Source: Patescibacteria group bacterium | GTDB lineage: Bacteria > Patescibacteriota > Saccharimonadia > UBA4664 | Assembly: GCA_028288925.1 (NCBI GenBank) | Contig: JAQGHG010000009.1 | Location: 1-33,950 of the forward strand | Reading direction: 5' to 3' | Length of the DNA stretch: 33,950 bases | Shown: positions 6,335-10,290 of the stretch, piece after piece | Layout: every line of letters begins with the position of its first letter | How positions within the stretch are numbered: position 1 is the first letter of the stretch | The notes under the pieces: model-generated | What the model saw: only the letters and a program-made list of their open reading frames with translations | Told to the model about the DNA's origin: nothing | Databases searched by the model: none | Made by a program: the position numbers and the translations under genes

Positions 6335-6691
6335 ATGGACTTCTTTGAACGAAAACTTGACGATAAGAACCGGCTTACGATTCCCGCGGAGCTGCGTCAC
6401 GAATTCGAGGGAGGCCAGGTAATCATTACTCGAGGTTTTGCTAACTACCTGCACTTGTACACTGACAAAGTTTGGAACGAAGAGATGGAACCGGCACTCA
6501 AGGGTGATATACTTGACGAGCGCACGGCCGACCTCAACGTTCAATTCCGAATGGGTAAATCGGCCAGTGCAATGGATGCCAAGCAAGGCCGGATTACCAT
6601 AGAACAGCATCTCCTCGATTACGCTGGTATTGGCAAAGAGGTGGTGGCCGTGAGAGCCGGGAACTACTGGCGCCTGACGGCAAAATCTTAA
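6335..6691 (+). CDS. mraZ: transcriptional regulator MraZ
   Basis: MraZ is the ring-forming regulator at the head of dcw operons. The protein has two SpoVT/AbrB-like half-domains. Each carries the DxxxR-type DNA-binding signature: DDKNRLTIPAELR near residue 10 and DAKQGRITIEQ near residue 80. At 118 residues it is shorter than the usual ~140-150, mostly through loss of the C-terminal tail. The start ATG follows the four-box operator. There is no convincing ribosome site, so initiation may be SD-independent. Confidence 0.92.
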   Translation: MDFFERKLDDKNRLTIPAELRHEFEGGQVIITRGFANYLHLYTDKVWNEEMEPALKGDILDERTADLNVQFRMGKSASAMDAKQGRITIEQHLLDYAGIGKEVVAVRAGNYWRLTAKS

Positions 6692-6962
6692 CTTAGTTTT
6701 CATTCCAAAACGAAAAGCACTTTCAAAACCAAAAACAAACATTTTAAAGGCAACTATTTGGCAGTCAGCGAAACGGCCCATAGGCTACCGTTAACAGCCT
6801 CGAACCTAAATCTCGTAAAACTCCACCTCACAACACTCTTTTTAGGAATTATCAACTCGATAATTCCTTACCACACAAAACTCCATTTTTCGCCCTGAAC
6901 CGGCGAAACAAAAACAAAAATGTGCAAACAAAAAGCTGGCTGCTGAATAGGTGACCTTGAAA
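6692..6962 (+). other. 271-bp mraZ-rsmH spacer, A/C-rich, with palindrome
   Basis: No gene of normal length is present. The coding strand is strikingly poor in G, with stretches such as AAACAAAAACAAAAATG. A perfect 10-bp inverted repeat lies at 6844-6853/6859-6868 (AGGAATTATC-AACTC-GATAATTCCT) without a T-run, so it looks like an operator or RNA hairpin rather than a terminator. An 8-codon ORF (6920-6946, ending TGCTGA) sits 16 bp before rsmH; its significance is unknown. Confidence 0.55.
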
Positions 6963-7895
6963 ATGAATATGACTTCGCAACACCAACCAGTATTAATCAC
7001 CCAAGTTATTGAAATGCTCCAACCCCAGAAGGGGGAGGCGTATCTCGACGCTACGGCTGGTTATGGCGGTCACGCCGCGGCGATTCTGCAAAGGATCGGC
7101 GACGACGGGCGAACCATACTGGTAGACCGCGACGCGCGCGCCACACAGGCGCTCGGCGAGCGGTTTGGAGACCGGGTAGAGATCATACACAGGAGCTTTC
7201 TGGAAGCGGCTGAACAGCTGCTCGAGGACGGAACACTGGTAGATATGATCCTGCTAGATCTGGGAGTCTCGTCACCACAACTTGACAATACAGAGCGAGG
7301 ATTCAGCTTTCGGACCGATGTGCCGCTAGATATGCGGATGGATCAATCCCAGTCTATGACGGCGGCCGAGGTAGTAAACCATACGTCCGTTCGCGAATTA
7401 GAGCGAATCATCCGGGAGTATGGCGAAGAGCCACGGGCACGGGCAGTCGCGCAAGCGATTGTAGCGGCCCGGCCTATCGCCACCACCGGTAGCTTGGCCA
7501 AAGTAGTGCGAAAATCAGCACTGCAGACCAAGGATATCGATGCGGCTACCCGGACGTTTCAGGCCATTCGGATCGAAGTGAATGCCGAGCTAGAACAGCT
7601 CAAGGACGCGCTACCGATACTAACAAAACTTTTAGTACCGGGCGGCCGGATGGCTGTCATTAGCTTTCATTCCCTCGAAGACCGTATCGTTAAGCAGTTC
7701 TTTGACCGTGAATCGCGTGATTGCATTTGCCCACCAAAACAGCCAATATGTACCTGTGGGCATGTAGCTTCCTTGCGGAAGCTGACCAGTAAGCCGATCA
7801 TGGCGACCACTGATGAATTAGTTATCAACCCGCGAGCCAGGAGTGCGAAGCTCCGCGCCGCCGAAAAAATAAACAAAAACAAAAGGAGGGACTAA
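6963..7895 (+). CDS. rsmH: 16S rRNA (cytosine(1402)-N(4))-methyltransferase RsmH
   Basis: RsmH methylates the exocyclic N4 of C1402 in the 16S rRNA decoding centre. From the chosen ATG it has 310 residues, the normal size. Characteristic parts are HQPVLITQVIEML, the SAM motif DATAGYGGHAAAIL, LLDLGVSSPQLD, ERGFSFRTDVPLDMRMDQ and the late VISFHSLEDRIVKQFF. The frame is open from a GTG at 6951. The ATG at 6963 has AGGTGA 8 bp upstream, while the GTG would lie inside that site, so 6963 is preferred. The A-rich 3' end also forms the leader of the next micro-ORF. It is the second gene of the dcw block. Confidence 0.94.
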   Translation: MNMTSQHQPVLITQVIEMLQPQKGEAYLDATAGYGGHAAAILQRIGDDGRTILVDRDARATQALGERFGDRVEIIHRSFLEAAEQLLEDGTLVDMILLDLGVSSPQLDNTERGFSFRTDVPLDMRMDQSQSMTAAEVVNHTSVRELERIIREYGEEPRARAVAQAIVAARPIATTGSLAKVVRKSALQTKDIDAATRTFQAIRIEVNAELEQLKDALPILTKLLVPGGRMAVISFHSLEDRIVKQFFDRESRDCICPPKQPICTCGHVASLRKLTSKPIMATTDELVINPRARSAKLRAAEKINKNKRRD

Positions 7896-7896
7896 A

Positions 7897-7968
7897 ATGT
7901 CCATCAAGGTAAAAAACCTATCCAAAGGCCGCAAGGCAATCGCGATTCGCGTAAACGTGAAGCGCTAA
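7897..7968 (+). CDS. 23-residue basic micro-ORF between rsmH and ftsL
   Basis: The ORF starts one base after the rsmH stop. The near-perfect ribosome site AAGGAGGG lies 6 bp upstream, within the last rsmH codons. The peptide begins MSIKVKNLSKGRK and has nine Lys/Arg and no acidic residue. It alternates with short hydrophobic runs and ends VNVKR. No family is recognised. The strong, well-spaced ribosome site, which is better than those of its neighbours, argues for translation. It could be a functional small protein (RNA, ribosome or membrane binding) or a translated leader coupled to ftsL. It is followed by a large inverted repeat. Confidence 0.55.
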   Translation: MSIKVKNLSKGRKAIAIRVNVKR

Positions 7969-7983
7969 CTGTTCCTCGTCCCC

Positions 7984-8022
7984 GGGCAGCGTGTCCCACA
8001 AAAAAACCGGGCCACGCTGCCC
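7984..8022 (+). other. 10-bp perfect inverted repeat between the micro-ORF and ftsL
   Basis: GGGCAGCGTG (7984-7993) pairs perfectly with CACGCTGCCC (8013-8022) around a 19-nt loop containing seven A residues. No T-run follows; instead the sequence is A-rich up to the ftsL ribosome site. It may be an mRNA processing or attenuation structure that sets ftsL expression relative to rsmH. Confidence 0.55.
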
Positions 8023-8072
8023 ACCAAAAAAATTCTAAAAAACACAAAAACAAAACAAGGGAGGTATGCGCC

Positions 8073-8393
8073 ATGTCTACCGCTACTCTTACGGCGCGCC
8101 GTAATCAAAATCTATATCGTCAACCGACTAAATTACAGCTCGGGCCAACTTCGGCGACGTTTGTAGTAATCGCACTTATTAGCGTGCTCGCGCTGTTATA
8201 TTTGAATCAAATTACGAAAACCGGCACATTTGGCTACAAGGTGACGGATCTGACAGGTAAGCGCAACCAGGTGCTGGCCGAGAAGCAAGAACTGGGTGTA
8301 GAAGCGGCTCGTTTGCAGTCGATCGCCGCGACCAAAGCTTCGGCGACGGTGGCCCGCATGGTCCCGACCGGCCAAGTCTCATACGCAAAATAG
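8073..8393 (+). CDS. ftsL: FtsL/DivIC-like cell division protein
   Basis: This 106-residue bitopic protein has a short basic cytoplasmic N-terminus, one membrane segment (TFVVIALISVLALLYLNQI, ~29-48) and a coiled-coil-like outside part (LTGKRNQVLAEKQELGVEAARLQ). This is the FtsL/DivIC layout, and it lies in the standard ftsL place between rsmH and the division transpeptidase. FtsL sequences diverge widely, so the call rests on topology and position. The ribosome site AAGGGAGG is 8 bp before the ATG. FtsL would pair with the FtsQ-like protein encoded downstream and activate FtsWI. Confidence 0.75.
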   Translation: MSTATLTARRNQNLYRQPTKLQLGPTSATFVVIALISVLALLYLNQITKTGTFGYKVTDLTGKRNQVLAEKQELGVEAARLQSIAATKASATVARMVPTGQVSYAK

Positions 8394-8405
8394 GAGCTAA
8401 GACGG

Positions 8406-8531
8406 ATGCACATACCATCATTGGTGCTGAGTTTTTCCTTTACGCTCCGGCCTTGCGAGATTTGGCTGCATTCGAGCGTTTTGCCTTGGGCTTTGGCCTG
8501 GGGGAGTACAATGCGGGAATGGGTAGGATAG
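8406..8531 (+). CDS. possible 41-residue Trp-rich ORF between ftsL and ftsI
   Basis: The ORF has AGGAG at 8392-8396, overlapping the ftsL stop, 9 bp before the ATG. The peptide is hydrophobic with four tryptophans (EIWLHSSVLPWALAW). No family is recognised. It ends 7 bp before the ftsI start. It may be chance; a weak TACAAT box at 8507-8512 inside it could instead belong to an ftsI promoter. Confidence 0.25.
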   Translation: MHIPSLVLSFSFTLRPCEIWLHSSVLPWALAWGSTMREWVG

Positions 8532-8538
8532 GAATGGC

Positions 8539-10290
8539 GTGATACGACCAAGCGATACCATATTACAACGACGGCGGCTAAGGTACTTCACGGTACTCTT
8601 GGTGGTTTTTGGTATGGCACTGGTGGCCCGATTATTTTACTTGCAGGTAGTGAGGCACGAAGCGTATTTGGCGCAGGCCTCCAACGAACACACACGTAAG
8701 TACGAGGTTCCGGCGCGGCGCGGGGAATTGTACGTGCGCGACGGTGACGGTACCTCGCCGGTGGCTTTGAATCAGACGCTTAAACTGCTGTATGCGGACC
8801 CGCGCTATGTGGGCGACAAAGCCGAGGCGGCCCGGCGGCTGGCGGCGGTGACGGGTGGTTCGGCGGCTAGTTATCAGAAACGGCTGGAGCAGGGTATCGA
8901 GTACGCCGTGTTGGCCGAGCGGATACCTTCGGATGTGGCGGACAGAGTGAAAGCGCTGAATCTGGCCGGCATTGGCCTGGCCGACCGCGATTACCGGACG
9001 TATCCAGAAGGTCAGCTGGCGGCCCAGGTGCTGGGCTTTGTGAACGCCGACGGTCTAGGCCAATATGGCGTGGAGGGGTATCTCAATGACCAGCTGTCCG
9101 GGAAGGCTGGAAGGCTGGCGGCCAAGACCGACACCCACGGCATTCCGATTGCTACAGCCAGCAATGTGGTGGCGCCGCCGGTGGATGGGGTCAATTATTT
9201 GCTGACGATCGACCGCAATATCCAGGCGATGGCGGAGATGGAGCTTAAGGACCAGATCGACAAAGTAAAAGCCAAATCAGGCAGCATTGTGGTGTTGGAC
9301 CCGTCGACCGGAGCGGTGCGGGCGATGGCGAATTACCCAACGTATGATCCTAATCAATACGGGAACGTGAATGACTACAACGTATTCGTGAATCAAGCGG
9401 TTACGAGTCAGTTTGAGCCCGGTTCGGGTATGAAGGCGTTTACCATGGCGGCGGGGTTGGATCAGGGCAAGGTGAAGCCGGGCACTACGTACGACGACCC
9501 GGGCTCCATCAAGGTGGCGGATAAGGTAATTAATAATGCCCAGGGCGACAAGCCGGGTAAAAATAAGACGATGACCATGGTGCTGCGCGATTCGCTGAAC
9601 ACCGGCGTGGTGTTTGTGCTGAGAATGCTGGGAGGAGATCCGGACAAGATTACTTCGAACGGCAAGAAGATATTGTACGATTATTTCACTAAGCACTTTG
9701 GTTTTGGGCTTCGCACGGGGATCGAGCAGGCCGGCGAGGCGGCTGGTTCGGTGCCCCCGCCCAATACTAACGATGTGTCGTATGCCAATATGACCTTCGG
9801 CCAGGGTATGAGTGTGACGATGATCCAGATGGCGGCGGCGATGGCGGCGATCGCCAACGGCGGCAAGCTGTACCAACCGCACTTGGTGGAGGCGGCGATG
9901 AAGCTCGACGGCAGCTTGCAGCCGGTGGCGCCGAAGTTGGTGAGCGACCACGTAATGAGCCCGGCGGCGGTGGCCGACCTGAACCAGATGCTTCAGGTGG
10001 TGGTGCAACACGGCTCAGGTTATATCGCCGGGGGTATGAACCCGGGCTACAAGATCGCCGGCAAGACGGGTACGGCGCAGATTCCGCGGCCGGATGGCCA
10101 GGGCTATATCGACGGGGCGAATATCGGCTCATTCGTGGGGTTCGCGCCGGCCGATAACCCTAAGTTTGTGGTGATCGTGCGCATTAATGAGCCGGGCGTA
10201 AACGGCTATGCCGAGACGACGACGGTGCCGGTGTTTGGCGATGTATGCCGGTGGTTGTTTAAATATTATGGGATACCGCCGAGCTCATGA
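8539..10290 (+). CDS. ftsI: division-type class B penicillin-binding protein (FtsI/PBP transpeptidase)
   Basis: This monofunctional DD-transpeptidase cross-links septal peptidoglycan together with FtsW. It has 583 residues, one N-terminal membrane anchor (~15-36), a PBP dimerisation region with RRGELYVRDG (~60-70), and the transpeptidase domain. The active motifs are SGMK (S296-K299, usually STFK), SLN (352-354, usually SSN) and KTGT (509-512). All catalytic residues are kept although the surrounding positions differ. No PASTA domain follows. The GTG start at 8539 is chosen because the membrane anchor needs it and AGGA sites lie 5-10 bp upstream. Element B begins 7 bp after the stop. Confidence 0.9.
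   Translation: MIRPSDTILQRRRLRYFTVLLVVFGMALVARLFYLQVVRHEAYLAQASNEHTRKYEVPARRGELYVRDGDGTSPVALNQTLKLLYADPRYVGDKAEAARRLAAVTGGSAASYQKRLEQGIEYAVLAERIPSDVADRVKALNLAGIGLADRDYRTYPEGQLAAQVLGFVNADGLGQYGVEGYLNDQLSGKAGRLAAKTDTHGIPIATASNVVAPPVDGVNYLLTIDRNIQAMAEMELKDQIDKVKAKSGSIVVLDPSTGAVRAMANYPTYDPNQYGNVNDYNVFVNQAVTSQFEPGSGMKAFTMAAGLDQGKVKPGTTYDDPGSIKVADKVINNAQGDKPGKNKTMTMVLRDSLNTGVVFVLRMLGGDPDKITSNGKKILYDYFTKHFGFGLRTGIEQAGEAAGSVPPPNTNDVSYANMTFGQGMSVTMIQMAAAMAAIANGGKLYQPHLVEAAMKLDGSLQPVAPKLVSDHVMSPAAVADLNQMLQVVVQHGSGYIAGGMNPGYKIAGKTGTAQIPRPDGQGYIDGANIGSFVGFAPADNPKFVVIVRINEPGVNGYAETTTVPVFGDVCRWLFKYYGIPPSS

Follow-up and report, generated by a model that had tools for sequence, protein, structure and literature searches.

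Our bioinformatics analyses indicate that the microORF lying between rsmH and an ftsL-like gene in a Saccharimonadia genome is almost certainly a real gene, belonging to a class-wide family of microproteins whose amino-acid sequence is under strong purifying selection. As for function, we lean, tentatively and on sequence evidence, toward a trans-acting beta-hairpin microprotein that is most likely ribosome-associated, a role as a division factor being less likely. The source genome is a 1.2 Mb MAG of the class Saccharimonadia (CPR), with Candidatus Saccharibacteria as its nearest named relatives. The window (the whole stretch of DNA analysed, 33,950 nucleotides) carries, in this order, mraZ, rsmH, the microORF, the ftsL-like gene, a transpeptidase PBP gene and mraY, and the features on which the argument draws are as follows.

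6335..6691, plus strand: mraZ (PF02381, 1.1e-15)
6951..7895, plus strand: rsmH, for the 16S rRNA C1402 N4-methyltransferase, upstream neighbour of the microORF (PF01795, 4.2e-102)
7883..7890, plus strand: Shine-Dalgarno sequence AAGGAGGG of the microORF, within the last rsmH codons (from sequence)
7897..7968, plus strand: microORF, 23 aa MSIKVKNLSKGRKAIAIRVNVKR, member of the class-wide microprotein family (from sequence, conservation and selection)
7984..8022, plus strand: hairpin with a 10-bp perfect stem and a 19-nt loop with three further pairs (from sequence and folding)
8023..8072, plus strand: A-rich leader and Shine-Dalgarno sequence (AAGGGAGG) of the ftsL-like gene (from sequence)
8073..8393, plus strand: ftsL-like gene, 106 aa, single transmembrane segment, downstream neighbour (from its position between rsmH and PBP)
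8539-10290: PBP (transpeptidase; PF00905)

The microORF runs from an ATG at 7897 to a TAA at 7966-7968, the rsmH stop occupies 7893-7895, and the Shine-Dalgarno sequence ends six bases 5' of the ATG, which bears out the coordinates of the initial annotation, where a 23-codon ORF with a ribosome site 6 bp upstream had been placed between rsmH and ftsL. That annotation was also right that the peptide is without Asp or Glu, but its count of nine Lys/Arg has to be corrected to eight (5 K, 3 R). The same layout recurs across the class: an ATG starts 129 of the 131 distinct microORFs, and a ribosome-site-like word is present within 18 nt upstream of every one of them (131/131). The distance from rsmH to the start ranges from overlap to about 50 nt, and the microORFs of relatives often lie in another frame or at another distance after rsmH, with peptides such as MPIQVKSSSRAYKVRVKVL, MPKQIVVANKSRAQKVKVHFR and MSIKVKDQSPRARKLKVRIVK. 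Downstream, the next gene encodes a membrane-spanning protein in 125/127 loci by a hydrophobicity test and is mostly recognisably FtsL-like; the ftsL-like gene of the window gave no Pfam match and is named from its position and single transmembrane segment.

The family occupies the same place in the operon throughout the class, with members of 19-31 residues, mostly 19-23. Its profile matched 267 of 295 class genomes (E <= 1), with the position confirmed for only part of the few weakest among them (E 0.1-0.8). Inspection of the 28 unmatched genomes revealed the ORF in four (L004, L096, L105 and L150) and in 18 more, the remainder being five genomes without a detectable rsmH and one with rsmH cut at a contig end. 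In total, 289/295 class genomes carry the microORF and rsmH was detected in 289/295; every profile-unmatched genome with an intact rsmH 3' end has it as well. Most members scored 20-47 bits and the more diverged ones 5.5-20, against control maxima of 6.4 bits on the opposite strand and 6.6 in Clostridia loci. The microORF lies on the same strand and at most 400 nt after rsmH in 169/175 loci. Among the exceptions, L098 is an rsmH contig of a contaminated assembly that ends shortly after rsmH, L021 and L062 are probably outside the class, L145 and L250 have the peptide with rsmH beyond the examined stretch or at a contig end, and L238 is an extra, prophage-like copy. Among genomes drawn from across the phylum, profile matches were found in 7/8 genomes of the same class and 2/108 others (E <= 0.1), both of these weakly and partially, and no such ORF followed rsmH in 29 CPR loci checked from other classes; the family is therefore class-specific as far as tested. 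The initial annotation had taken loss of the frame and start between rsmH and ftsL in relatives as the outcome that would speak against it, and comparison of these regions found both retained. Its central suggestion, that a conserved small protein had escaped both description and annotation, is thus strongly supported, the frame, start and ribosome site being kept class-wide.

The selection pattern points the same way. Over 38 independent, non-overlapping pairs of related microORFs, 213 synonymous changes at 511 sites stand against 111 non-synonymous changes at 1643 sites, giving a pN/pS of 0.16, whereas the two other frames of the same DNA give 1.5 and 2.3. This dN/dS-type comparison, put forward with the initial annotation as a check, amounts to strong purifying selection, and because it is the amino-acid sequence that is selected, the pattern implies that the microORF is translated and that its product matters. 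The position of the ribosome site of the window within the last rsmH codons might suggest a chance ORF arising from the A-rich, ribosome-site-like end of rsmH. This explanation is hardly credible given the pN/pS of 0.16, the conservation of the ATG and peptide pattern across the class despite variable distances from rsmH, and the lack of any such ORF after rsmH in the loci checked from other CPR classes; in our view, the data on selection and conservation have already refuted it.

The peptides share a pattern of two strands, M-[PSTA]-I-x-[VI] ... [VI]-x-V-[RK], in which the second residue is P, S, T or A in 133 of 138 distinct peptides and [VIL]-x-[VIL] recurs near both the N-terminus and the C-terminus in 137/138. 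The stretch after V-x-V-R, the second strand, ranges from 1 to 13 residues and is variable in sequence. Net charge spans -1 to +8, with a median of +5: of the 138 peptides, 125 are at +2 or more and 13 (about 9%) at +1 or less, including three at -1. The basic character stressed in the initial annotation is therefore typical but neither universal nor defining, since those 13 peptides lie between -1 and +1. Such alternation points to a beta-hairpin, and the microprotein probably folds in this way, as a minimal hairpin whose first strand, I-x-V, lies close to the N-terminus and is joined through a turn around N/S-x-S to the second, K-V-x-V-R. In the only AlphaFold model, that of a longer phage protein with a similar N-terminus, the pLDDT over this segment is near 36, which weighs against this reading. 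The initiator Met would probably be removed, the second residue being small.

Family members of at least 20 residues had no match in Pfam or NCBIfam, an Rfam scan of window positions 6600-8600 returned nothing meaningful, and our literature searches, in the collections covered, found no mention of the gene. Comparison of the peptide and the profile with PDB chains gave no meaningful E-value and no similarity to solved ribosomal proteins; weak matches to 6-phosphogluconate dehydrogenase and eL38 (E > 1) were taken as chance. A global small-protein catalogue has been built with ORF prediction from 30 nt (PMC11364881), and resources of this kind may contain the raw sequence.

The microORF of the window is followed by a perfect 10-bp inverted repeat (7984-7993, GGGCAGCGTG; 8013-8022, CACGCTGCCC) with a 19-nt loop, just as initially described, and with three further C-G pairs inside the loop (folding z -2.6). 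An A-rich stretch without a U tract follows, and the stem excludes the ftsL ribosome site. Across the class, folding of the 70 nt that follow the stop gave a median z of -4.2, and 78% of the 131 microORFs fall below -2, compared with 28% of sequences upstream of rsmH, 9% of rsmH 3' coding regions and 21% of the stretches after rsmH in other CPR classes. When 110 nt were folded, the median distance from the stop to the start of the stem was 15 nt (5-95% range 7-56 nt). The sequence of the hairpin varies between members, and the 12 nt behind it contain, on average, 6.1 A and 1.7 T, which is not the layout of an intrinsic terminator or attenuator. In some members (L043, L220 and L248) the gap between the microORF and ftsL is long, G-rich and heavily structured; in L043, 150 nt fold at about -63 kcal/mol. 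Upstream of rsmH, at about 6890-6922 of the window, a short hairpin (TTTCGCC...GGCGAAA) is followed by CAAAAACAAAAA, a hairpin and A-rich layout resembling that before ftsL.

A short ORF ahead of ftsL, with a stable hairpin behind it more often than in any control, is what might be expected of a translated leader that gates ftsL together with the hairpin by attenuation or as an arrest peptide, as the initial annotation had considered. The comparative data disfavour this, and we regard it as very unlikely. Family f6 keeps the peptide but has no hairpin, and the stem offset is variable elsewhere; the hairpin is thus a separate, optional mRNA element that the peptide does not need. The C-terminal residues vary in number and kind, so that the peptide would not sit in a fixed register in the peptidyl-transferase centre, and together with the missing hairpin of f6 this makes a leader arresting at its stop unlikely. 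The absence of a U tract, the ftsL ribosome site left outside the stem in the window and the occurrence of a second copy in an unrelated operon also speak against it. The hairpin could perhaps protect or separate mRNA segments.

A place immediately ahead of an ftsL-like gene, as seen at nearly all loci, would also suit a division microprotein, co-expressed with ftsL and acting on the divisome through FtsL, the septal PBP or cytoplasmic FtsZ/SepF, and the prophage-like copy likewise directly precedes a gene for a small single-span membrane protein. On the other hand, peptide charge and the charge of the FtsL cytoplasmic tail are uncorrelated (Spearman -0.01, n=126) and both partners are basic (median tail +5), making simple electrostatic pairing with FtsL unlikely, and other CPR classes have rsmH-ftsL without the microORF. 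We judge a division role rather unlikely.

The prophage-like copy is a second homologue of 26 aa, MKIKIKNLSKTQKINVSFKKGANHEE, in genome G252, 17 kb from the normal copy. It is the first gene of an operon that also contains small ORFs and a Rad52-like gene (the Rad52 match being below the Pfam cut-off), and it overlaps the start of the gene for the small membrane protein. In viral contigs with a related gene, the same operon begins with proteins of about 125 aa, the first ~20 residues of which resemble the microprotein at 12-13 bits only.

L238 1081-1158, G252:C3:14101-14157, minus strand: second microprotein copy, first gene of the prophage-like operon
L258 3387-3761, L259 3391-3762, plus strand: ~125-aa viral proteins at the operon start, with N-termini MKIKVKDLSKGVEKVPVRI... 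and MKIKVTDKSTGATEVAVRV...

Another viral ORF, MKIKVDYIETPAQKVKVSFKEAGRRGG..., at L258 6597-6767 (plus strand) and also in L257 and L259, has a similar two-strand start. A DNA-pattern search of the viral contigs revealed no convincing microORF. A search with the longer, modelled phage protein in 195 class genomes gave weak partial matches only, so that viral homology is a lead rather than a finding. The second copy and the viral N-termini, along with the nearly constant adjacency to rsmH, could fit an RsmH co-factor, or a small peptide that binds RNA or RNA polymerase and that phages also exploit. The viral similarities are low and may be coincidental, and to our knowledge RsmH functions without such a peptide in other bacteria, which counts against the co-factor; we hold this explanation to be distinctly unlikely.

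Returning to the ribosome-associated beta-hairpin, the microprotein would be translated as part of the mraZ-rsmH-microORF-ftsL-pbp operon, using a strong ribosome site of its own, and, because a soluble peptide of 19-23 residues is unlikely to be stable alone, would dock in trans on a larger partner. The ribosome would be the likeliest partner, or else a late step of 30S assembly next to RsmH, with a divisome complex as the next choice. A ribosomal or 30S-assembly partner is favoured by the size, usual charge and universality of the peptide, by the rsmH neighbour and by the precedents of bL37, bS22 and bL38. Against it stand the near-neutral or slightly acidic members, which would be unusual for a peptide buried in rRNA, and the lack of similarity to any solved ribosomal protein. 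A literature query for a Saccharibacteria ribosome structure found none in the collection searched. A more speculative and rather doubtful extension is that a beta-hairpin of 19-23 residues, universal in Saccharimonadia, might be an essential component, unique to them, of the ribosome or divisome, and that some of their phages would carry a version of it as an early gene.

Few bacterial operons have been studied as closely as the dcw cluster, yet a whole CPR class has an apparently universal extra gene there, invisible to annotation because of its length. The microprotein offers a sharp, small target for what sets the ribosomes or cell division of Saccharibacteria apart, and these bacteria are now genetically manipulable (PMC10633639).

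Gene order in the window is that of the dcw operon (mraZ-rsmH-ftsL-pbp) of other bacteria and CPR classes; unlike in Saccharimonadia, the rsmH-ftsL gap of other CPR classes has no microORF (29 loci). Leader and arrest peptides such as TnaC, SecM and the Erm leaders are encoded by short ORFs that precede another gene and have an mRNA hairpin close by, and the microORF resembles them in both respects. Unlike these leaders, the microprotein is conserved at the amino-acid level over its whole length with a variable C-terminal register, and its hairpin is dispensable, forms no terminator and sequesters no ribosome site; neither invariant C-terminal residues spaced constantly from an arrest point nor an RNA structure controlling the next gene in all members was found. 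Lineage-specific ribosomal micropeptides are a second point of comparison, one being bTHX of Thermus. No sequence similarity to peptides of the bL37, bS22 and bTHX kind was found. The microprotein has a two-strand pattern, unlike the short helix and loop of bL37, and some members are near neutral, unlike Borrelia bS22 with 61% Lys/Arg, so that strong basicity is not common to all members; universality in the lineage combined with purifying selection is what the family does display (289/295; pN/pS 0.16). The 24-aa bL37 of mycobacteria (PMC5876184) and bS22 and bL38 of Borrelia (PMC10618245) are lineage-specific ribosomal peptides of similar size that were overlooked until cryo-EM, and the microprotein is like them in being very short, mostly basic, lineage-restricted and missed by annotation (PMC5876184, PMC10618245).
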